Shown one piece after another: positions 6,577 to 60,803 of a stretch of 64,000 nucleotides of DNA. The DNA is from Gluconacetobacter liquefaciens (GTDB taxonomy: Bacteria > Pseudomonadota > Alphaproteobacteria > Acetobacterales > Acetobacteraceae): positions 1-64,000 of the forward strand of contig NZ_QQAW01000003.1 of the NCBI RefSeq assembly GCF_003350405.1, in the 5' to 3' direction. The stretch's first letter is position 1, and every line of letters begins with the position of its first letter. The notes beneath the pieces were generated by a model. That model was not told where the DNA came from and searched no databases. It was given only the letters and a program-made list of their open reading frames with translations. The position numbers and the translations under genes were made by a program.

Positions 6577-7723
6577 CGTTCAGCAGCACCGCACCCTGGG
6601 TCACGACGCGGTCGCCGGCAGCCAGGCCGGATGTGACCTCGCACAGGTCGCCGTTGTCATAGATGATCTCGATATCGCGCCGTCTGTAGGCGTGGGGCGC
6701 GACTTCGACGAACACCGTCACGGTATCGTTGTTCATCAGCAGCGCCGATTGCGGCACCATGATGCGCGGCGGCTGCGGGGTCAGGATGGTCACGGTGGCG
6801 AACATGCCGGGCTTCAGCGTGTCATCGTCATTGGCCAGCACCACGCGCGCCTGGAGCGTGCGGGTATCGGAATGCAGCGCCGGTTCGATCGCCGCGATCG
6901 TGCCGTGCGTCGTCCGGCCCGGCAGGGCGGGAAAGGTGATATCGACCGTCTGCCCGACATGGACGGCATCGGTCAGGTTTTCCGGCACGGCGGCGACGGC
7001 CCAGACCTGCTGTGTGCCGGTGACCGTCATCAGTGGTGCCGTCGGGTCGGTGACGAAGGCGCCGGCGGCGGTGTTGACCGCCGAGACCATGCCGTCGATC
7101 GGCGTGGTCAGCCGGATCACGCCGCCCTGTCCGGGCTGAGCGCGCAGGGCGGCCAGTCGCGCGGTGGCGCGGTCATCTTCCGCCTGGGCCTGGAGCCACG
7201 CGCTGCGTGCGGCTTCCACATCGCGCGTGGCGGCGCCGCCGGCGCTGGCGACGCCTTGGGCGCGCAGCAGGGCCCGCCGCGCATAGTCCAGCCCGGCGCG
7301 GGCCTTCGCGGCATCGGTCGTGGCCTGGGCCATGTCGCCCGAGGCCAGTTCGGCGAGGATCTGGCCGCGCGTCACATGATCGCCGGCGGTTACCGGCAGG
7401 CTGATGATCGCGCCGGCAACCGGCGTCATGACCGAAAGCGACTGAGACGGCTCTGCACGGATTTCGCCGGGCACCGGAATCGTGCGGCTGGGCGAGGCGA
7501 GCGTGACGGGGGTGACAGACAGGCGGGCCGCCAGCGGCGAGTCTGGCGTGACCGTCAACAGGCCATGGTCATTGCGTACCATGGTGCTGGCCGAAGCCAT
7601 GGCGGACGTGGCGGCGCCGGACAGGATGGCGCAGATCACGAGACCGGCCCCCAGCAGACGCGCTGTGCGGCCGGATGATCGGGAGAAGGGCGGCGAATGT
7701 ATCACGGGCGCGATCTGGTGCAT
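6569..7723 (-). CDS. RND efflux periplasmic adaptor (membrane fusion protein, CusB/CzcB-like)
   Basis: This 384-residue adaptor is the first gene of the efflux operon. A membrane-spanning or signal segment at about 23-44 (ARLLGAGLVICAILSG) is followed by a biotinyl/lipoyl-like domain split around an alpha hairpin (residues about 125-185, Ala/Arg-rich). Beta-barrel segments follow, with the conserved pattern AGAFVTDPTAPLMTV and a final AAGDRVVTQGAVLLND. Adaptors of this type link the RND pump to the outer-membrane factor and, in CusB/CzcB relatives, help load metal. No N-terminal His/Met-rich metal-binding tail is seen. Its last codons overlap the permease start, showing coupling. No metal-sensing regulator gene lies next to the operon. 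Confidence 0.9.
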   Translation of the reverse strand: MHQIAPVIHSPPFSRSSGRTARLLGAGLVICAILSGAATSAMASASTMVRNDHGLLTVTPDSPLAARLSVTPVTLASPSRTIPVPGEIRAEPSQSLSVMTPVAGAIISLPVTAGDHVTRGQILAELASGDMAQATTDAAKARAGLDYARRALLRAQGVASAGGAATRDVEAARSAWLQAQAEDDRATARLAALRAQPGQGGVIRLTTPIDGMVSAVNTAAGAFVTDPTAPLMTVTGTQQVWAVAAVPENLTDAVHVGQTVDITFPALPGRTTHGTIAAIEPALHSDTRTLQARVVLANDDDTLKPGMFATVTILTPQPPRIMVPQSALLMNNDTVTVFVEVAPHAYRRRDIEIIYDNGDLCEVTSGLAAGDRVVTQGAVLLNDD

Positions 7724-8433
7724 GGGCCTGAGCCTGGGGTCCTGGAAGAAAAGGCGGCATCCAACCCTAACGAGAGCCAGGACGGGACCGATTCCGGACG
7801 AGAATATGATGTTACGGGAAGGCGGTTACGGGGAGGCTGGGGCCGACACCGCGCGCTGCCACTAGCGACGATCCCGATCCTTGTCCATGGGCGCGCCGGA
7901 GGTGCCGCCTTGCACGCCGCGGAGCCGACAGTCGGCACGAAACGGGGCTGTCGCCGGGGGAGGGAGACAGGTGCCGGAAGGACGGAACAGGCCGTGGCAA
8001 CCGGGCGGAAAAGGGAGCCGGCCACAGGGGGAAAAACGGGACCTGTGGAAAAGGAAATGAAAACATCTGTCTGTATCAGGTCTGGCACGGCTGTTTCTTT
8101 TGTATCGGGCCGATCCGGCCGATGCGCGGCCAGGAGGGACGGGCACGACAGGCACGTATGACGATCGATAAAATATTACAAACTTTTTCAAAACCATAAC
8201 GATAAGATGATCGTTATTTAATATTTTCTCATGAGAGAATGCGGAATTCGTATATGTCATGAAAATTTCACAGCCCTTTTCCGGGCTCTCCGGAGGGGAT
8301 CTGCCTGTGGGCAAGGGCGCACGCCGGCCTGCGGCGTGACGGGCCGTGCGTTTCATGTCATTGCGGAATGTGATCGCCGGGCCTGTGACCCGGCACTGCA
8401 TGCGATTTCCCGAAATTTTGAAAGGTTGCCCAT
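7724..8433. other. Intergenic region between efflux operon and M61 peptidase
   Basis: About 710 bases with divergent flanking genes. The first half (about 7940-8070) is strongly purine-rich on the plus strand with repeated GGGA/GGAAA tracts. The second half (8160-8280) is AT-rich and carries an 8-bp inverted repeat at 8196-8217 and the palindrome TCTCATGAGA at 8227-8236. An open frame across 7697-8161 has poor protein composition and no ribosome site, so it is not called. The region probably holds promoters for both flanking transcription units. Confidence 0.45.
8196..8217. promoter_or_regulatory. Inverted repeat ATAACGAT-N6-ATCGTTAT
   Basis: Perfect 8-bp arms flank a 6-base spacer in an AT-rich stretch about 220 bp upstream of the M61 peptidase start and about 480 bp upstream of the efflux operon start. 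A second palindrome, TCTCATGAGA, follows at 8227-8236. The arrangement resembles an operator for a dimeric regulator. Which gene it controls is not shown. Confidence 0.4.
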
Positions 8434-10416
8434 TTGCGTCCGCTTTCCAAACGCATTCTCGCCCTTTCCTTGTCCACAGCCCTGGCCACGGTCGGCCTGG
8501 TGGGGCTGTCGCAGAGCGCGGGGGCGGCTGACAGCCAGCCCCAGCCGGAGCCTCTGCCGCTGCCCGATTCCATCCCGGCGCCGCGGGACGTGCCGTTTGG
8601 TGGCACCATCCGGCTGTCGGTCGATGCCACCGACCTGGCGCGTCATATCATGACCGTGCATGAGACCGTGCCGGTGCCGGCCGCGCTCGCGGCGACGGGC
8701 GGCGACCTGCCGCTGTTCTACCCGATGTGGCTGCCGGGCGATCATTCGCCGACCGGTGCGCTCGATCAGTTCGGCGGCCTGGTGGTGAAGGCCGGCGGAA
8801 CGACGCTGCCTTGGCTGCGTGACACTGTCACGGTCAGTGCCTTCCATATTCCCGTGCCCAAGGGGGCGCATACGGTGGATGTGTCGTTCCAACTCCTGTC
8901 GCCGGTTTCGCGCGAAGAAGGGCGCGTGGTGATGACGCCCGCGATGCTGAACGTGCAGTGGAATGCGGTGGCGCTCTATCCGGCCGGGTATTTCACGCGC
9001 CAGATCCCGGTCGAGGCCAGCTTGCGCCTGCCCACGGGCTGGCAGTACGGCACGGCGCTGCGCGCGCAGAGCAAGGCCGGTGACGTCGTGACCTTCAAGC
9101 CGGTGCCGTTCAATACGCTGGTGGATTCCCCGCTGTTCGCCGGGCGGTATTTCCGCCGCATCGACCTGGCGCCGGGTGCCGCCGTGCCGGTGGCGCTGAA
9201 CCTCGTGGCGGACAAGCCGGGGGAACTGGAGGTGACCGATGCCCAGATCGCGGCGCATCGTGCGCTGGTGACGCAGGCGAACCTGCTCTACGGCTCGCAT
9301 CATTACGATCATTATGACTTCCTGCTCGCGCTGACCGAGGAACTCGGCGGGATCGGGCTGGAGCATCATCAGTCGAGCGAAAATAGCGGTCCGCGCGGCT
9401 ATTTTACCGAATGGGACAAGACGTTCGCGACCCGCGACCTGCTGGCGCATGAATACACCCACTCGTGGAACGGCAAATACCGCCGGCCGGCCGGCCTGTG
9501 GGCGCCGAACTTCAATACCCCCCAGCGTGGGACGGGCCTGTGGGTCTATGAAGGGCAGACCCAGTATCGGGGGTATGTCCTGGCGGCGCGTGCGGGCCTG
9601 ATGACGGCACCGCAGGTGATCGAGGCGCTGGCCGAGGTGGGGGCGGTGTATGACACGCGCCGCGGACGCACCTGGCGGCCGCTGATCGATACGACGAACG
9701 ACCCGGTGATCGCGCGACGTGCGCCGCTGTCGTGGCGGAGCTGGCAGCGGAGCGAGGATTACTACTCCGAAGGCCAGCTCATCTGGCTGGATGCCGACAC
9801 GCTGATCCGCCAGCTTTCCGGTGGCAAGCATTCGCTGGACGATGTGGCGCGTCATTTCTTCGGCACCAATGATGGCAGCTTCATCACCAGCACCTATGAG
9901 TTCGACGACGTGGTGAAGGCGCTGAACGACATCCAACCCTATGACTGGGCGACGTTCCTGCATCAGCGGCTGGACAAGACTTCGGAGCACGCACCGCTGG
10001 ACGGGTTCACGCGCGGTGGCTACCGGCTGGTCTATACGGATCAACCCAACAAATATGTCGCGTCGTTCGCCAACGTGCGGCATGTGGCGGATTTCGCTTT
10101 CTCGCTGGGCCTCACGATCGGCAAGAGCGGCACGCTGGGCAATGTGGAATGGGGCAGCCCCGCCTGGCAGGCCGGCATAACCCGCGATGCGAAGGTGATC
10201 GCGGTGAACGGCGAGGCGTATGACCCCGACGTGCTGCGTGAGGCGATCGTCGAAGCGAAGGATGCGCACGCCGCGCCGATCGCTCTGCTGCTGCAGGAAG
10301 GCGATCGCTATGTGACGGTCTCGGTCCCGTATCATGGCGGGCTGCGCTATCCGCATCTGGAGCGTGTGGACGGCAAGCCGGACATGCTGGCCGATATTCT
10401 GGCGCCGCGTCACTGA
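8434..10416 (+). CDS. M61 glycyl-aminopeptidase family metalloprotease with PDZ domain, exported
   Basis: This 660-residue protein starts at TTG: AAAGG lies 8 bases upstream and no ATG precedes the signal peptide (MRPLSKRILALSLSTALATV, cut near AGAA). An N-terminal beta domain leads to the catalytic motif HEYTHSWNGK with H339-E-x-x-H343, the M61 signature HExxHxWNxK. A PDZ-like domain around residues 550-610 (SLGLTIGKSG, WQAGITRDAKVIAVNG) is usual for the family. M61 enzymes are zinc aminopeptidases that favour N-terminal Gly or Ala; here it would act in the periplasm. It stands alone, 72 bp before the TRIC-like gene. Confidence 0.9.
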   Translation: MRPLSKRILALSLSTALATVGLVGLSQSAGAADSQPQPEPLPLPDSIPAPRDVPFGGTIRLSVDATDLARHIMTVHETVPVPAALAATGGDLPLFYPMWLPGDHSPTGALDQFGGLVVKAGGTTLPWLRDTVTVSAFHIPVPKGAHTVDVSFQLLSPVSREEGRVVMTPAMLNVQWNAVALYPAGYFTRQIPVEASLRLPTGWQYGTALRAQSKAGDVVTFKPVPFNTLVDSPLFAGRYFRRIDLAPGAAVPVALNLVADKPGELEVTDAQIAAHRALVTQANLLYGSHHYDHYDFLLALTEELGGIGLEHHQSSENSGPRGYFTEWDKTFATRDLLAHEYTHSWNGKYRRPAGLWAPNFNTPQRGTGLWVYEGQTQYRGYVLAARAGLMTAPQVIEALAEVGAVYDTRRGRTWRPLIDTTNDPVIARRAPLSWRSWQRSEDYYSEGQLIWLDADTLIRQLSGGKHSLDDVARHFFGTNDGSFITSTYEFDDVVKALNDIQPYDWATFLHQRLDKTSEHAPLDGFTRGGYRLVYTDQPNKYVASFANVRHVADFAFSLGLTIGKSGTLGNVEWGSPAWQAGITRDAKVIAVNGEAYDPDVLREAIVEAKDAHAAPIALLLQEGDRYVTVSVPYHGGLRYPHLERVDGKPDMLADILAPRH

Positions 10417-21865: not shown

Positions 21866-22816
21866 ATGCCGGACCAGAGCGAGACCGTCATTCCCGACAG
21901 CCATCGTGCCGAGCCGGTGGAACTGGAGAAGGATGATACCGTGCGTCGCGCCGTGGTGCGGATCGCCCGCGTCCTGCGCGAGCATCTGGAGGCCAACCTG
22001 CCGGTGGCGATGGATGGGCGGAATGTGGAGGGCGTACATCAGGTACGCGTGGCCCTGCGCCGCTTTCGCGCGCTCGCGGGGCTGCTGCGGCGCGATTATC
22101 CCAGCGCCACGCTGGACGAAGCGGCGGCGCGGGCGCGCATGCTGGCGCGTGCGGTCGGCGAGGCGCGGGATTGGGATGTCTTCATGCTGGAGACGCTGCC
22201 CGGCCTCAGCCCGCTGGGGCGGGCGGGAGTCAATGTCGTCGGGCGCCTGCTGCCGCTGGCCCGGCCTCTGCGCGATGGCGCCTACGCGCGGGTGCGGCAG
22301 GCGCTGGCCAGCGCGGATGCCGAGTGGCTGCTGAATTTCATGGGGAATCTTGCCGATGGCAGCCTGTGGGACGAGGCGCGGTCGCCGGCGGGGCTGAAGG
22401 CGCTGGAAGAACCGGCGGCCGATTTCGCCGCCCGTCATCTGGCACGGCTGCATCGCAAGGCGCGACGCCGTGGACGGGGGTTCGCGCGGCTGACACCGCC
22501 GGAGCGTCATCAGGTGCGGCTGGCCCTGAAAAAACTGCGCTATGCGTCTGAATTTTTCGTGACGCTTCATGCGCCAGGTCGGAAGAGCGGGCCCTACCTA
22601 CGGCGCCTGTCGGCGGCGCAGGCGGCCTTGGGGGCGGATAGCGATGTGTTGACCACGGGACGGCTGCTGACCCGATTTGGCGGCAGGCCGGACGACGAGA
22701 TGCGCCATGTGGTGGGCGCGGTGACCGGGTTTCTGTGCTGCCGGCAGGACGCGACCCACGATGCGGCGCACAGGCAGTGGCGCAGGTTTCGCCGCACCCC
22801 GGTCTTCTGGGCCTGA
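21866..22816 (+). CDS. CHAD domain protein
   Basis: A 316-residue, Arg- and His-rich, all-helical protein. The CHAD pattern is seen in VEGVHQVRVALRRFRALAGLLRRDYP (conserved His-x-x-Arg-Val-x-x-Arg-Arg-x-Arg, given in pieces), VGEARDWDVFMLE and RHQVRLALKKLRYASEFF. CHAD (PF05235) domains bind polyphosphate through conserved basic helices, and many occur with CYTH triphosphatase domains; no CYTH domain is present here. Function is therefore limited to probable polyphosphate binding. Start chosen at ATG 21866 with an ideal AAAGGAGG upstream. Confidence 0.85.
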   Translation: MPDQSETVIPDSHRAEPVELEKDDTVRRAVVRIARVLREHLEANLPVAMDGRNVEGVHQVRVALRRFRALAGLLRRDYPSATLDEAAARARMLARAVGEARDWDVFMLETLPGLSPLGRAGVNVVGRLLPLARPLRDGAYARVRQALASADAEWLLNFMGNLADGSLWDEARSPAGLKALEEPAADFAARHLARLHRKARRRGRGFARLTPPERHQVRLALKKLRYASEFFVTLHAPGRKSGPYLRRLSAAQAALGADSDVLTTGRLLTRFGGRPDDEMRHVVGAVTGFLCCRQDATHDAAHRQWRRFRRTPVFWA

Positions 22817-22941
22817 TGCCGGTAAAGGCCTTCATCAGAGTGTCACGAAGTCTTCATCCGGCCGTCGTTGCTTCCGGTCCGATATCGTGGTCTTGAGCCC
22901 CATTCTTACGGACATGCTGCCGCGAGAAGGAGAGCCATGTC

Positions 22942-23148
22942 ATGATCAAATCCGAGATCGTCGAGATTGACGGTGTATTCGTCGGGGTTGTCATTCAGTC
23001 CCGTCACGATGGAACGCGCGTCTTCCGTGCCATTCATGAATGGCTGAGTCCGCTCAACGGGCAGATCATGGCCTCGCTTCAGGATGCGCGGATGCTCGCG
23101 GCCGGCCTGTTCCGCCGGCAGAGAGTGGCGGCACTCGCCGCCGCCTGA
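22942..23148 (+). CDS. Small hypothetical protein
   Basis: A 68-residue protein of unknown function. A strong AAGGAGAG ribosome site at 22927-22934 is 7 bases upstream. An out-of-phase ATG at 22937 nearer that site opens ATG-TCA-TGA, a three-codon frame that overlaps this start. The N-terminal half is beta-like and acidic (IVEIDGVFVGVVIQS) and includes RVFRAIHEWLSPLNG; the C-terminus is Ala/Arg-rich. I recognise no domain. A real gene is supported by the ribosome site and normal codon use. Confidence 0.55.
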   Translation: MIKSEIVEIDGVFVGVVIQSRHDGTRVFRAIHEWLSPLNGQIMASLQDARMLAAGLFRRQRVAALAAA

Positions 23149-54949: not shown

Positions 54950-57079
54950 ATGCGGCTCATAGTGATTGTCGACGACCGTTCGACCAATCGGACCATCTTT
55001 GCCAGGCTGGCGGCATCGCTCGGGGCCGACATTCGGGTTGAGACCTTCGCGACGCCACAGGAGGCGCTGGACTGGTTCGCCACCGAGCAGGTGCCCGATC
55101 TGGTCATTACCGACTACAAGATGCCCCGGATGGACGGGGCAGCCTTTACCGCCCGTATCCGCGCGCTCGACTGGGGATATGATGTGCCGGTCGTCGTCGT
55201 GACGGCTTATGAGGATCGTAATTATCGGCTGAGTGCCCTCGAAGCGGGGGCGACCGATTTTCTGCTGAGCCCGGTCGACCATACCGAGTTTCTGACGCGT
55301 GCCCGCAACCTGTTGCGGTTGAGCTGGTACCAGAAGCGGGTGCGTTCTCGCGCCATGCAACTGGAAGAGGAACTGATCAGCAGCCGCCGGGCGCATGACG
55401 ACCTGCTGCGCGGTAGCCGCGACCGGCTGCTGCAGGTGATTGATACCGTGCCGGCCATGATCAGCGCCACGGATCGCGATGGAAACTATATTTTCGTGAA
55501 CCAGTTTCACGAGAATATTCTCGGACGACAGAGCTGCTGCGACGATGCGGCCGCATTGGTACTGGACAGGCAGGTTCTGGCGTGCGGAGAGCCTACAGCC
55601 CGTTACGAGGAAAATTTCGTCGATCGTCATGGGGTGAGATGGAGCCTCCTGACATCGAAGATTCCGTTTTATGACGATACGAGCGGCGAGCGTTATGTCT
55701 TGACGACCTCGCTTGATATAACGGATCGCAAGAAATCGGAGCGGGAGTTACATAATCTTGCCTACTTCGATCAACTGACGGGCCTGCCCAATCGATCGCA
55801 TCTGGAAAAACATGCTCAGATGCTTCTGACGGGGGAGAGCGAGCGGCCTTTCGCTTTTTTCCTGCTGGATCTGGATCGTTTCAAGAGTGTCAACGATACG
55901 CAGGGCCATACGATCGGGGACCAGCTTCTACGGCAGGTAGCGGCCAGGCTGCAGTCGCTTCTGCCGCATGCGGGCCTGATTGCCCGTCTGGGTGGCGATG
56001 AGTTCGCCATTCTTCATGATGTCGACGACATGAACGATGCCGGCGAACTGGCCGAGCAGATTACCGGGGTTTTTGTTGCGCCCTTCATTCTGGGCGACCT
56101 GGTAATGAATGTCGGCGCCAGTGTCGGTATTGCCTTGTCCCCCGATCCGGCCCTGACGTTCGAGACGATGCTGAAGCGTGCGGATCTGGCGATGTATCGC
56201 GCCAAGAACGAAGGCCTGCAGCATTATGCCTTTTTCGAAACCGCAATGGAGCATGCGGTTTCCGTCGCGGCCGACCTGGAGCAGGCATTGCGTCAGGCGA
56301 CCGAGAACGGCGCGTTCACGTTGCATTATCAGCCCGAGATCGACCTGGCATCGGGCATGGTGACGGGGGTCGAGGCGCTGATCCGATGGGTGCGGCCTGA
56401 TGGAGAACTGGTTTATCCCGGTCATTTTCTGCCGCTGGCCGAAGAAACGGGGCTGATTGTGCCGATGACGGTCTGGTCGTTGCGTGAAGCCTGCCGTCAG
56501 GGGACCGTCTGGGCGCGGGAGGGCATCAATATCCGCATTGCGGTCAATCTGTCCGGCATGTTGTTCCGTCATCACGATGTTCAGAAACTGGTGCTGGACG
56601 CAATTACCGAAACAGGCCTGGACCCCGCCTTCCTTGAACTGGAACTGACCGAGACGGCATTGATCGAAAATCCCGAAGTGGCGGGACGGCAACTGGCGGC
56701 GTTGCAGGACATGGGCGTCTCCGTGGCGATCGATGATTTCGGGACGGGCTATGCGTCAATGATTTATCTGACGACGATGCCGATCCGTAGGTTGAAGATC
56801 GATGCGCTCTTTGTTCGGGAAATCGATTCTTCGTCGAGTAGCCGGGCGATCATCAAAGCGATCATCGCGCTGGGCAATAATCTGGATATTCGCGTGATCG
56901 CGGAGGGCATAGAACGCGAAGACCAGTTGCTGTGGCTGAAGGAGCAGGGATGCGATCAGGCACAGGGATTCCTGTTCAGCCGTCCGGTTCCGGCCGAGAA
57001 GTTCCAACAAATGGTGCGCGCCGGCGTTCTGACCGTGTCGGACGGTCAGGGGGCGACCGAACGACCTGATGGGCGTTGA
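54950..57079 (+). CDS. REC-PAS-GGDEF-EAL composite response regulator of c-di-GMP turnover
   Basis: A 709-residue protein in four modules. REC (1-120) has acidic pocket D8/D9 and phosphoacceptor D55 in LVITDYKMP, but the conserved lysine of the KP motif is Ser107 (FLLSPVD). A PAS domain spans about 160-260 (VPAMISATDRDGNYIFVNQ). GGDEF is intact (RLGGDEF, 346-352) with no RxxD inhibitory site at the usual place. EAL is intact (E475-A-L; NLSG; ELTET; DDFGTG 595-600; Lys616; EGIER). It could both synthesise and degrade c-di-GMP. Its gene lies 93 bp before an RpfC-like kinase and appears to stand in for RpfG. Confidence 0.92.
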   Translation: MRLIVIVDDRSTNRTIFARLAASLGADIRVETFATPQEALDWFATEQVPDLVITDYKMPRMDGAAFTARIRALDWGYDVPVVVVTAYEDRNYRLSALEAGATDFLLSPVDHTEFLTRARNLLRLSWYQKRVRSRAMQLEEELISSRRAHDDLLRGSRDRLLQVIDTVPAMISATDRDGNYIFVNQFHENILGRQSCCDDAAALVLDRQVLACGEPTARYEENFVDRHGVRWSLLTSKIPFYDDTSGERYVLTTSLDITDRKKSERELHNLAYFDQLTGLPNRSHLEKHAQMLLTGESERPFAFFLLDLDRFKSVNDTQGHTIGDQLLRQVAARLQSLLPHAGLIARLGGDEFAILHDVDDMNDAGELAEQITGVFVAPFILGDLVMNVGASVGIALSPDPALTFETMLKRADLAMYRAKNEGLQHYAFFETAMEHAVSVAADLEQALRQATENGAFTLHYQPEIDLASGMVTGVEALIRWVRPDGELVYPGHFLPLAEETGLIVPMTVWSLREACRQGTVWAREGINIRIAVNLSGMLFRHHDVQKLVLDAITETGLDPAFLELELTETALIENPEVAGRQLAALQDMGVSVAIDDFGTGYASMIYLTTMPIRRLKIDALFVREIDSSSSSRAIIKAIIALGNNLDIRVIAEGIEREDQLLWLKEQGCDQAQGFLFSRPVPAEKFQQMVRAGVLTVSDGQGATERPDGR

Positions 57080-57172
57080 GGCATCGTGGATCGCGCGTAT
57101 GCACCAGGGTCGTGCGGTGCCTCCGGGCGGCGTGCGTGCTGTCCGGGTTGCGCAACCTGAGGGGCGGAGCAG

Positions 57173-59677
57173 ATGGGCGGACGTGACCTGCTGGCGCGTA
57201 TGCGGCGCGGGGGCGATGGGGAGCACCAGATTGTTCTGAACAGGTTGGTGATTGGCGTCATCCTGCTGGTCTATGTCGTCGGGCTCTTTCTTTATGGTGG
57301 ATTCGCGACACGGGCGCTGTTCGTCTGGTCGATCGTCTGTGCGACCCTGTATCTTGCAGGCGGTCTGGCAATCGCTGCGACCCTTGTCGCGTGGCCGCGT
57401 CCCTCGCCGGCGCGGCGGATTATCCAGATGACAGGAGATATCGGTTTCCTCTCGTTTGGCATGTATCTGGACGGGGTGGCCGTCATTCCTTTTTATCCTC
57501 TCTATCTTTGGGCGATTCTGGGATACGGCTTCCGGTTCGGCCTGCCTTACCTGACGGCCGCTGCCGTCATGTCGGCAGGCGGGTTTACGCTGGCCGTGCA
57601 TGCGTTGCCCGTGTGGCGGGATGCCGGGCATCTGCTGATGGGGCTGACGCTGGGCCTGCTGGTCGTCCCGCTTTATTCGGCGTCGCTGATCCGATTTCTG
57701 TCCAATCTCAGGCGACGTGCGGAGGAGGCCAGCCAGGCGAAGACGATGTTCCTGGCCAGTGTCAGTCACGAACTGCGCACGCCGTTGAATGCGATGATCG
57801 GCATGACGCGCCTGCTGAACGACACGAAGCTGGATTCCGACCAGCACGAGATGGTGCAGACGGTACGGATCGCGGGAACGTCTCTTCTGGGAATGGTCGA
57901 GGGGTTGCTGGATTTCGTTCGGATCGAGAATGGGCGCATGCCTGTGCAGATGCAGCCCTTTGGAGTGCTGGGAGTGCTGGAGGCGGTCCGGCGCATCGTG
58001 GGGGTGGCAGCACATGAAAAGGGGCTGCTGCTGACCTGCCATGTTACTGCCCGCACACCGCTCTGGCTGGTCGGTGATGAAAAGCACTTGCGGGACGTGC
58101 TGCTGAACCTGGCTGGCAATGCGGTCAAGTTCACGCAAAGCGGGCATGTGCTCATTGCGGTCGATGGCCAGCCTGTCGAAAATGATGGACGGACCCGTCT
58201 GGCGATCACCGTGATGGATACCGGTATCGGCATTCCCCAGGCTGCCCTGGAACGGATTTTCGAGCCGTTTACCCAGGCGGATGCGACCATGATCGACCGC
58301 TTCGGCGGGGCTGGGCTGGGGTTGTCGATCTGCCGCCAACTGGTCACGCTGATGGGAGGGGAGATCGGTGTGCGCAGTCGGGAAGGGCAGGGCAGCACGT
58401 TTCGTGTTATCGTGCCGTTCGGGATTGCGCAGGGGGAGCGCGACGAAACCGGAAGGGATCTGCCACCTCTGCTGTTATGGACGCACCAGTACGATCGTTA
58501 TCATGCGCTGCATGCCCGTCTGGTGGCTCTTGGGGCAAGGATTACCGTCATGTCTCCCGATGAGGGGAGTGCTGAGGCTTTGGAACGGCTCGTGCGCCCG
58601 CATATCGTGCTTACCGACCTTGCGGAGGAGCGGGTGGATCTGCCGGCCGTCGTTCCGGTGGTGTTGCTGCGGCCGGCCGGTGCCGGGGAGTTGGCGTCCG
58701 AAGCCGCGCAGCGCGAGTACGTTTCGACGTTGACGGCCGATGCCGATGACCGGTCGATCGTGACGGCGTTGGCCGTTGCTTCGGCTTTCATGCCCATGCC
58801 CGTAGGGGGCGTGTCCGAACCGGATGCTGCTATACCCGATCGTGCCGCAGGCCCTTCGCTCTCGATCCTTGTGGTCGAGGATAATATCGTGAACCGGAAG
58901 ATCCTGTGCAGGTTGCTGACGCGTGTCGGGCACCGATGGGAGGCTGTGGCGAATGGGGAAGAAGCGCTCGATATCCTGCAGGAACGGTCGTTCGATCTGG
59001 TTCTGATGGACCTGAACATGCCGGTCATGAACGGGATCGAAGCCACGAAGCTTCATCGCTTTTCCGAGGTCGGAGGAGTGGAGGCACTTCCGATCGTGGC
59101 TTTGACGGCCGATGGTACGCCGGAAACCCAGCAACGATGTCGCGAGGCCGGGATGAATGCTTTCCTGCTGAAGCCCGTGATGCTTGAGGATCTGGTATCG
59201 ACGATCGCGGCGCTGGTGCCTTCCGAGGCCGGACGATCGCATGCTGTCGGCAGATTGCCGGCCGGTGGCCAGCCGTCTGAGGACGGAGGCGCTGCCGTGG
59301 TGGTGCCGTTTCCGGTTCCGACCATCAATCGCAGGTTGGTGCAGGATCTGCTCGATCTGGGGGGCGCGCATTTCAGGGCCGAAGTCATTGGCGATTTTCT
59401 GCGGGATGCCGAGGAGATTGTCGGGCGAATGGCGCAGGCACTGCAGGAGGCCGATCGGGAGCGCCTGCTGGATGAGGCGCATGCGTTGCGCAGCGCCGCC
59501 GCCAATGTCGGAGCGGAACGACTGGCGGCATTGTGTCATGAATGGCGGATCGTTCCCCATCAGAACGGGCCGGAAAGGCCGCAGGCGCATCTGAAGACGA
59601 TCCGGCTGGAGATGAACGCGGTGCAGGATGCGCTGCGGCCTTATGCGACCGTGCCGGCGGCGGGCGGCTTGCCCTGA
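57173..59677 (+). CDS. rpfC: RpfC-like hybrid sensor histidine kinase (DSF receptor candidate)
   Basis: An 834-residue hybrid kinase. The N-terminus has GGDGEHQIVLNR, resembling the short sensor stretch of Xanthomonas RpfC with its Asp-x-Glu-His pattern (from memory), then about five helices (25-175) including IPFYPLYLWAILGYGFRFGLPYL. HisKA His199 is in FLASVSHELRTPLN, the ATPase has N312/N316, DTGIGIP and GGAGLGLS, a REC domain has D613 (LVLMDLNMP) and K667, and a C-terminal HPT has His770 (DEAHALRSAAANVG). This is the RpfC order. The rpfF-like gene converges on it. It probably relays phosphate to the preceding REC-GGDEF-EAL protein. Confidence 0.88.
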   Translation: MGGRDLLARMRRGGDGEHQIVLNRLVIGVILLVYVVGLFLYGGFATRALFVWSIVCATLYLAGGLAIAATLVAWPRPSPARRIIQMTGDIGFLSFGMYLDGVAVIPFYPLYLWAILGYGFRFGLPYLTAAAVMSAGGFTLAVHALPVWRDAGHLLMGLTLGLLVVPLYSASLIRFLSNLRRRAEEASQAKTMFLASVSHELRTPLNAMIGMTRLLNDTKLDSDQHEMVQTVRIAGTSLLGMVEGLLDFVRIENGRMPVQMQPFGVLGVLEAVRRIVGVAAHEKGLLLTCHVTARTPLWLVGDEKHLRDVLLNLAGNAVKFTQSGHVLIAVDGQPVENDGRTRLAITVMDTGIGIPQAALERIFEPFTQADATMIDRFGGAGLGLSICRQLVTLMGGEIGVRSREGQGSTFRVIVPFGIAQGERDETGRDLPPLLLWTHQYDRYHALHARLVALGARITVMSPDEGSAEALERLVRPHIVLTDLAEERVDLPAVVPVVLLRPAGAGELASEAAQREYVSTLTADADDRSIVTALAVASAFMPMPVGGVSEPDAAIPDRAAGPSLSILVVEDNIVNRKILCRLLTRVGHRWEAVANGEEALDILQERSFDLVLMDLNMPVMNGIEATKLHRFSEVGGVEALPIVALTADGTPETQQRCREAGMNAFLLKPVMLEDLVSTIAALVPSEAGRSHAVGRLPAGGQPSEDGGAAVVVPFPVPTINRRLVQDLLDLGGAHFRAEVIGDFLRDAEEIVGRMAQALQEADRERLLDEAHALRSAAANVGAERLAALCHEWRIVPHQNGPERPQAHLKTIRLEMNAVQDALRPYATVPAAGGLP

Positions 59678-59695
59678 AAAACGGACAGAGAAGTC

Positions 59696-59733
59696 GAGCG
59701 TTCTCAACAGGATGAAGCCTGATGAGAACGCTC
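59696..59733. terminator. Hairpin after rpfC-like gene
   Basis: GAGCGTTCTC and GAGAACGCTC form a perfect 10-bp stem with a further CAGG/CCTG pairing inside, followed by TTTCC on the plus strand. It lies 18 bp past the kinase stop and suits a terminator. Confidence 0.65.
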
Positions 59734-59748
59734 TTTCCTGCCGTCCTG

Positions 59749-59842
59749 GAGCATTTCCACCGAAAACCGGTTCGGTGGAAGTGCTCTAGTATATTGTTTT
59801 TGTAAGCATCTTCACCTGTTTGAATGCACGCATTCAAACAGG
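59749..59842. repeat. Two adjoining palindromes in the rpfC-rpfF gap
   Basis: GAGCATTTCCACCGAA (59749-59764) pairs with TTCGGTGGAAGTGCTC (59771-59786) with one mismatch. Then CCTGTTTGAATGC and GCATTCAAACAGG (59815-59842) form a perfect 13-bp stem with a 2-base loop. A TGCTCTAG string follows each. Similar GAGCA...TGCTC repeats occur in alphaproteobacterial intergenic regions (from memory). They can terminate the minus-strand rpfF transcript. Confidence 0.65.
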
Positions 59843-59849
59843 ATCTGCT

Positions 59850-60803
59850 CTAGCTGGCGACGCTCTTGGGTTCCGGCGTGGCGATGCGACGGTTCTGGGC
59901 GTTGACCAGGCGCAGCATCTTGCGGAGGTCGGCCTCTGTCAGCTTCAGCGCGGCATCGACCCAGATATCGGTAATGTCGCGTAGTTCCTGATGGCTGATC
60001 GGATTGACCATGCGCTTGACGTGCTGGATCGCATCATGTGCATTCTGGCGCTTGCCGATGCGGGCCAGATAGTCGCTGACAGCGGCTTCGCCTTCTCCCG
60101 TTTCGGCGACGACGTCGACGATGCCCATCTCATGCAATTCCATGGCCGTATACATCTGGCCGCTGAGGATGATTTTCTCGGCCATGCGGGGATTGAGGCG
60201 CCGCGACAGCAATGTGAATGCGCCCATGCCGGGGAACAGGTTGAACAGGATCTCCGGCAGGCCGAACTTGGCATGTTTTTCGGCAACGATGACGTCGCAT
60301 GACAGAGCCGCCTCGAACCCGCCGCCGAGTGCGTCGCCCTGCACCAGTGCGATGGTGGTCAGGCCATGGCCGTAGCCGTCGGCGTTGGCGAAGACCACAT
60401 CGACACAATGATGGGCGTAGTGACGCAGGCCTTTACGGTCACCCTGCATGATTTTCTCGGCGAACAGGGACAGGTCGCCGCCAAGATTGAAGATGCCGGC
60501 GACCCGTGATCCCACGACGATATTGCGAAACGGCAGGGCACCATCCGTTTCAACGGCCAGATGGTGGATATCCTGTTGCACGGCATGCAGGTCGCGCAGC
60601 AGGGACGGCGAAAAGCTGGGGCGACCGCTGGGCCGCATGAAGGTCCATAAGGTCTTTGCGGCATGATCGAGTCGGATCTCTACGTGGGGCAGGCTCTCCA
60701 GGGTGGGGGCGGCCTGATCGGGCAAGGCGCCGCCGGGCGCCAGGTGGGCCGGGTTGCTGGAGGAAGCGGGCGTGACGGCTCGAAGGCTGGATTGCAGTGA
60801 CAT
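59850..60803 (-). CDS. rpfF: RpfF-like DSF synthase (crotonase superfamily)
   Basis: A 317-residue crotonase. The two catalytic glutamates specific to DSF synthases are E164 in GGGFEAALSCDVIVAE and E184 in GLPEILFNLFPGMGA, 20 residues apart as E141 and E161 of Xanthomonas RpfF. Other RpfF segments are GIFNLGGDLSLFAEKIMQGDRKGLRHYA and DITDIWVDAALKLTEADLRKM. It would convert a 3-hydroxyacyl-ACP to a cis-2-unsaturated fatty-acid signal by dehydration and thioester cleavage. ATG 60803 has AGGAG 6 bases upstream. It converges on the RpfC-like kinase, so synthase and receptor genes are neighbours. Confidence 0.9.
   Translation of the reverse strand: MSLQSSLRAVTPASSSNPAHLAPGGALPDQAAPTLESLPHVEIRLDHAAKTLWTFMRPSGRPSFSPSLLRDLHAVQQDIHHLAVETDGALPFRNIVVGSRVAGIFNLGGDLSLFAEKIMQGDRKGLRHYAHHCVDVVFANADGYGHGLTTIALVQGDALGGGFEAALSCDVIVAEKHAKFGLPEILFNLFPGMGAFTLLSRRLNPRMAEKIILSGQMYTAMELHEMGIVDVVAETGEGEAAVSDYLARIGKRQNAHDAIQHVKRMVNPISHQELRDITDIWVDAALKLTEADLRKMLRLVNAQNRRIATPEPKSVAS

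Follow-up and report, generated by a model that had tools for sequence, protein, structure and literature searches.

Three adjacent genes in a 64,000-nucleotide stretch of Gluconacetobacter liquefaciens DNA (contig NZ_QQAW01000003.1, positions 1 to 64,000; hereafter the window) probably constitute an Rpf-type signaling locus in which a REC-PAS-GGDEF-EAL protein acts as the cyclic di-GMP (c-di-GMP) output of an RpfC phosphorelay. The locus is a real, conserved, and widespread variant of the Rpf system, and the novelty lies in this variant and its breadth rather than in a new kind of system. Two core routes for perceiving the diffusible signal factor (DSF), RpfC-RpfG and RpfR, are described in excerpts of PMC4504480, and these become points on a broader range of outputs behind RpfC. 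The literature searched, subscription papers aside, yielded neither an account of rpfF in acetic acid bacteria nor one of a REC-PAS-GGDEF-EAL regulator linked to RpfC.

The three genes and their relation to known Rpf proteins

The three open reading frames (ORFs) are intact and lie where the first-pass annotation of the window had placed them. Their features, and those of the space between rpfC and rpfF, are as follows.

54950..57079, + strand: REC-PAS-GGDEF-EAL response regulator P0001, in the rpfG position, 709 amino acids (aa)
54959..55300, + strand: receiver domain of the regulator; acidic pair D8/D9, D55, and T85 kept, conserved Lys replaced by S107
55382..55735, + strand: PAS domain of the regulator; PAS_8 barely above cut-off, boundary chosen for a domain query
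55760..56215, + strand: GGDEF domain of the regulator; GGDEF motif intact, no RxxD inhibitory site
56282..56986, + strand: EAL domain of the regulator; catalytic motifs intact
57173..59677, + strand: RpfC-like hybrid sensor kinase P0002, 834 aa
57173..57697, + strand: membrane sensor region of RpfC; N-terminal DSF-hook motif GGDGEHQIVLNR
57737..57934, + strand: HisKA domain of RpfC (Pfam), with H199
58073..58420, + strand: HATPase_c domain of RpfC (Pfam)
58865..59206, + strand: receiver domain of RpfC (Pfam), with D613 and K667
59381..59629, + strand: Hpt domain of RpfC (Pfam), with H770
59850..60803, - strand: predicted RpfF-like DSF synthase P0003, with E164 and E184, 317 aa
59696..59842, no strand assigned: three stem-loops between the convergent rpfC and rpfF
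59746-59789, between rpfC and rpfF: terminator-like stem-loop with a 19-bp stem

As in Xanthomonas, the regulator gene lies upstream of rpfC on the same strand and rpfF is convergent with rpfC (PMC4504480). A gap of 93 bp separates the regulator gene from rpfC, with no rpfH between them, unlike in Xanthomonas, and 172 bp separate rpfC from rpfF. The start of P0003 is the ATG at 60803, and the mechanical ORF extends further upstream. Promoter-like sites are not above chance (2 observed versus 2.0 expected).

P0003, which carries the Pfam domains ECH_1 and ECH_2, had been read as an RpfF-like synthase with both catalytic Glu residues, and comparison with solved structures agrees. Four RpfF-type chains (7zq7, 3m6m, 6dgn, and 5fus) match at E-values of 1e-62 to 3e-53 and, after a gap, the best non-RpfF hydratase chain follows at 1.5e-17. 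The depositors label 3m6m and 6dgn as RpfF, 7zq7 as a crotonase family protein, and 5fus as a putative enoyl CoA hydratase; we take 7zq7 and 5fus to be RpfF proteins as well, in keeping with how close they lie to the other two. A quick tree of 51 rows divides 41 RpfFs, P0003 among them, from nine of ten ordinary hydratases (support 99); the remaining hydratase, on a very long branch, was placed on the RpfF side, and the tree program flagged long branches. E164 is Glu in all 41 RpfF rows and E184 in 40, and the corresponding catalytic pair of Xanthomonas campestris pv. campestris (Xcc) RpfF is E141/E161 (PMC9040811, excerpts). An ordinary enoyl-CoA hydratase was considered as a candidate identity for P0003 and was rejected on the structure-chain E-values and this tree.

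For RpfC and RpfF alike, a control was provided by locus L233 of genome G391, where the neighbors of rpfF are an RpfC and a REC-HD-GYP protein. We term this genome Xanthomonadaceae-like because its RpfF is nearly identical to 7zq7, with 3m6m next closest. P0003 is 47% identical to the control RpfF over 251 aa. P0002 was expected to be an RpfC-like kinase, and it has both the membrane sensor and the HisKA, HATPase_c, Response_reg, and Hpt domains of Xanthomonas RpfC (PMC4504480), with 38% identity to the control RpfC in a 420-aa stretch spanning sensor to ATPase and 34% in 238 aa of the REC-Hpt part. Hydropathy peaks in P0002 did not add up to a clear number of transmembrane segments, and its topology is presumed from alignment with Xanthomonadaceae-type RpfC. 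Judged from its sequence, P0002 is an RpfC by descent. The mechanical RpfC ORF of the control locus (6588-9320) has a tandem double membrane sensor (aa 5-177, and from 196 on) that resembles an RpfH-RpfC fusion.

The regulator P0001 occupies the place of the REC-HD-GYP protein RpfG, and Pfam matches (Response_reg, PAS_8, GGDEF, and EAL) bear out the domain order originally proposed. PAS_8, at 22.0 bits against a cut-off of 21.8, is the only PAS model for which P0001 itself passes threshold, and PAS_4 is matched in close relatives. The nearest named relatives found, at 83-84% identity, are from Gluconacetobacter asukensis, tumulicola, and aggeris. Both enzymatic motifs are intact, with GGDEF starting at residue 348 and EAL at 475. 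Among 60 GGDEF-EAL regulators, 56 have the exact GGDEF motif and 59 retain the EAL catalytic residues examined (the exception is L078). An RxxD inhibitory site is present in 32 of the 60 and absent from the P0001 cyclase, where the site reads PHAG. Either the diguanylate cyclase or the phosphodiesterase activity could dominate.

A PAS-GGDEF-EAL output near rpfF recalls the RpfF-RpfR systems of Burkholderia and Cronobacter, which use the related signal BDSF, and this likeness in domains holds. However, RpfR as described in the excerpts of PMC4504480 has no receiver and acts independently of RpfC, whereas the window regulator begins with a REC domain. Furthermore, a quick tree of 40 GGDEF-EAL rows unites the 28 RpfC-partner types in one group (support 86), with nine RpfR-type rows and three paralogs from the window genome outside it. 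RpfR ancestry for the GGDEF-EAL part of the regulator was rejected on this tree, at a support of only 86. The rpfFCG cluster of Leptospirillum is another in which rpfF, rpfC, and a regulator gene stand together outside the xanthomonads, but its RpfG is reported to be of the HD-GYP type and its genes to form a putative one-directional operon (PMC8357829, excerpts).

Conservation of the locus and exchange of its output

Matches to P0003 at 1e-40 or better occur in 73 of the 299 Acetobacteraceae genomes sampled, across 33 of 102 genera. Of the 74 match places, 72 had their neighborhoods read (the window and 71 fetched loci), and the partial hits in G219 and G088 were left out. Both rpfC and a REC-PAS-GGDEF-EAL gene accompany rpfF at 35 of these 72 loci (17 genus codes), and the arrangement at 27 of the 35 is convergent with rpfC central, as in Xanthomonas; five loci (genus code g53) have the regulator central and rpfF divergent, and three have all genes on a single strand. 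Other loci have rpfC with a short REC protein of 253-291 aa (8 of 72), rpfC alone (5), the regulator without a recognized rpfC (2), or rpfC with another REC protein (1). The short partners replace the GGDEF-EAL protein at L072 (5832-6692), at L077 (12560-13375), and at six more loci of the family, and the two run through Pfam are REC-PAS_4 proteins with no catalytic domain.

The genes also co-occur at the genome level in this family. The REC-PAS part of P0001, used as a query at 1e-25 with the output domain disregarded, matches 79 of the 299 genomes: 68 have both rpfF and the REC-PAS module, 5 only rpfF, 11 only the module, and 215 neither. The Fisher p value of 4.6e-49 is not corrected for kinship, which inflates it. 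In eight genomes read (genera g83, g62, g35, and g65), the rpfC-regulator pair lies apart from rpfF, and the tie therefore persists despite physical separation of the genes. Conserved neighborhood and co-occurrence together support a functional tie among the three genes. Within Gluconacetobacter, three other sampled genomes have both rpfF and the regulator, and G042 has neither. Two more (G215 and G247; L325 and L326) carry the regulator, with a receiver 73-74% identical, and show no rpfF match and no adjacent rpfC.

Wider sampling places the window regulator in a larger set. P0003 is matched in 62 of 398 genomes of a phylum sample (40 neighborhoods read) and in 24 of 385 genomes of a class sample (20 read), and these supplied 8 and 20, respectively, of the 28 alphaproteobacterial loci outside the family. 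Fifteen of the 28 pair rpfC with a REC-histidine kinase, a class assigned by BLAST to the P0002 kinase with Pfam run on 3 of the 15, whereas four pair it with a REC-PAS-GGDEF-EAL protein. Eight have no such genes, and the remaining locus, L313, encodes a REC-PAS-HisKA_2 protein with no recognized rpfC. The REC-histidine kinase genes (L306-L312, L314-L317, and L319-L322; PAS in most) resemble the window regulator gene in their order relative to rpfC and in encoding a related receiver that lacks the conserved lysine (53-62% identity to that of P0001), but differ in having a kinase rather than GGDEF-EAL as output. This suggests that the signal feeds a two-kinase cascade at these 15 loci.

REC-HD-GYP proteins, recognized by motif and with a Pfam check of two of the nine, are found at all five loci of f46, a Xanthomonadaceae-like family, and at four other loci of the phylum sample. 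At seven loci (L239-L243, L245, and L246), a GGDEF-EAL gene lies beside or near rpfF with no recognized rpfC; the RpfF of L242, the only one of these checked, is closest to 6dgn and 5fus. The small-genome family f38 contributes 15 loci, of which 12 have rpfC without a recognized partner and one has a REC-HD-GYP protein. At f38 loci L213, L215, L218-L221, L223, L224, L229, and L248-L250, rpfF is convergent with rpfC and no response regulator was recognized, L221 being near a contig end.

Mapped on a quick tree of 99 RpfC rows, the four partner types imply six changes against a possible minimum of three. The outputs behind RpfC are exchangeable and include REC-PAS-GGDEF-EAL, REC-HD-GYP, REC-PAS histidine kinase, and bare REC-PAS proteins. 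In the alphaproteobacterial set that includes the window regulator, one receiver, mostly with PAS, is attached to GGDEF-EAL, to a histidine kinase, or to no output domain. The replacement of RpfG noted in the first-pass annotation is real, but it is one of several alphaproteobacterial output types rather than a peculiarity of this genome.

Predicted signaling route and competing explanations

From the homology, domain order, intact catalytic residues, convergent arrangement, conservation, and co-occurrence of the three genes, we infer a signal, a phosphorelay, a direction of c-di-GMP change, and a physiological output. The product of RpfF would be a diffusible signal, a cis-2-unsaturated fatty acid or something closely related, and RpfC would perceive it with its membrane sensor and the short hook at its N-terminus. 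Phosphate would then pass within RpfC from H199 to D613 to H770, and from the Hpt domain to D55 of the regulator. The regulator would in turn set the level of c-di-GMP and so influence the targets of this messenger, cellulose synthase among them. Net phosphodiesterase activity upon signal perception is the direction we favor, on the analogy of RpfG and RpfR.

Several observations weigh against this proposal. Neither rpfC nor the regulator lies nearby at 21 of the 72 Acetobacteraceae rpfF loci, some of them at contig ends, and the 5 rpfF-only genomes are 5 of the 73 that bear rpfF. The NCBIfam RpfF model NF053515 scores P0003 at 247 bits against a curated cut-off of 550, perhaps because that cut-off was set for a narrower RpfF group. 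In the sensor of the window RpfC, three of five residues needed for DSF sensing in Xanthomonas differ. Finally, the lysine of the LxKP motif, the receiver motif that carries the conserved lysine, is replaced in the window receiver, as it is in all 84 alphaproteobacterial receivers of our set (60 GGDEF-EAL, 9 short, and 15 kinase), with Ser in 71 of them. Loss of the receiver lysine weakens the phospho-switch in other receivers.

The sensor residues raise the question of the ligand. Cai and others found R15, D17, S18, E19, and Q22 of Xcc RpfC essential for DSF sensing, with Thr the sole tolerated replacement of Ser18 (PMC5391125, excerpts). In the window RpfC only D17 and E19 are kept, and R15, S18, and Q22 (Xcc numbering) become G, G, and I. 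Because three of the five residues have changed, the ligand is not safely DSF and may differ, so that the original assignment of a DSF signal stands for the homology of RpfF and RpfC and is less certain for the identity of the molecule. It is unlikely, though worth weighing, that the anatomy is as proposed while the Gluconacetobacter RpfC senses a non-DSF ligand, such as another fatty acid or a lipid, or that the RpfF product is unusual.

The hook motif GGDGEHQIVLNR is uniform in all four Gluconacetobacter RpfCs read, as this explanation would have it. In an alignment of 100 RpfC sensors, with Ser or Thr accepted at position 18, all five residues are present in 14 of 15 kinase-partnered and 6 of 8 HD-GYP-partnered RpfCs, in 1 of 50 GGDEF-EAL-partnered and none of 9 short-partnered ones, and in 6 of 17 with no partner found. 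Position 22 is Gln in 22 of the 23 HD-GYP- or kinase-partnered RpfCs versus 2 of the 50 partnered with GGDEF-EAL. However, the hook change tracks RpfC lineage, and the GGDEF-EAL-partnered RpfC of L324, from outside the family, retains all five residues. Moreover, an adjacent rpfF with intact catalytic residues implies that receptor and synthase may have co-evolved. A causal tie between Gln22 loss and the GGDEF-EAL output was considered and dropped because the residue change follows lineage: the kinase-partnered L308 has Met at this position, and L324 has Gln.

A comparably unlikely explanation is that phosphorylation does not switch the regulator in the usual manner: the receiver would serve mainly as a dock for RpfC or RpfF, and intracellular sensing of the signal would fall to the PAS domain. 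Such sensing has precedents in RpfS, which binds DSF via a PAS_4 domain, and in RpfR, which binds BDSF via PAS (PMC4504480). The PAS_4 matches in close relatives of P0001 point in this direction, as does the contrast between the 84 Lys-less receivers and the HD-GYP RpfG-like receivers, of which eight of nine keep Lys and one has Arg. In contrast, the threshold match of P0001 to PAS_8 alone argues against PAS sensing, and RpfC retains a full Hpt domain. Acidic pair and phospho-acceptor Asp are kept in every row of the 97-receiver alignment, and with the Thr in all 84 of the Lys-less rows, which exceeds the needs of a mere dock. These rows include near-copies, and a few of the 60 GGDEF-EAL rows have no adjacent rpfC. 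Among the four further receivers, L067 and L313 have Ser and the distant homologs L107 and L109 have Lys. The simplest reading of the alignment is that the lysine was lost before the outputs diverged. Transfer of phosphate to D55, as first suggested, is consistent with the presence of D55 and Hpt, but a standard phospho-switch there is less certain because the lysine is replaced. Lys-less receivers of this kind offer natural material for studying how a signal is transmitted without it.

It is very improbable that the supposed RpfF is simply a crotonase of the ordinary kind and that the two-component pair has nothing to do with a fatty-acid signal, as the best NCBIfam equivalog of P0003 ("crotonase/enoyl-CoA hydratase family protein") and its score below the RpfF cut-off might suggest, given the RpfF-type chain E-values, the tree support of 99, and the conserved association (68 of 299 genomes; 35 of 72 loci).

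An Rpf-type locus with an RpfC phosphorelay to the regulator thus remains our preferred reading. More speculatively, elements of these explanations may combine: an ancestral Lys-less REC-PAS unit that docks RpfC could form an alphaproteobacterial plug-in architecture whose outputs are swapped (a dual c-di-GMP enzyme, a histidine kinase, or no enzymatic domain), with the Gluconacetobacter hook re-tuned to a private, non-DSF lipid signal that acts through c-di-GMP on cellulose. We regard this combination as possible though doubtful.

Cellulose and related genes elsewhere

Searches of the window genome assembly (31 contigs, 4.17 Mb) returned nine EAL matches and no match to HD_5/HD-GYP (PF13487). 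One BcsB match and one PilZ match fall in a single 1568-aa frame, a putative fused cellulose synthase on the strength of these two matches. A translated 500-residue stretch of this frame shows the PilZ domain, with letters compatible with the PilZ motifs RxxxR and DxSxxG. The proposed link from the locus to cellulose is made more plausible because the only PilZ match of the genome lies in the same frame as BcsB. It was in an acetic acid bacterium, as a regulator of cellulose synthesis, that c-di-GMP was first described (PMC3749722, excerpts). The locus might tie the production of slime (cellulose) to crowding, and a fatty-acid-type locus with a c-di-GMP enzyme as output would give cell density a direct and testable influence on matrix in industrial acetic acid bacteria.

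Related genes also occur on plasmids. On a Methylobacterium plasmid (L345, 6880-9210) and a Sphingomonas plasmid (L346, 6826-8784), rpfF is convergent with an annotated EAL-domain gene, with no rpfC annotated beside rpfF on either; the Methylobacterium EAL protein is PAS-GGDEF-EAL by Pfam. The Escherichia coli plasmids NZ_CP060058.1 and NZ_CP060062.1 encode, at 22319-23044, a relative of RpfF that shares 37% identity with P0003.

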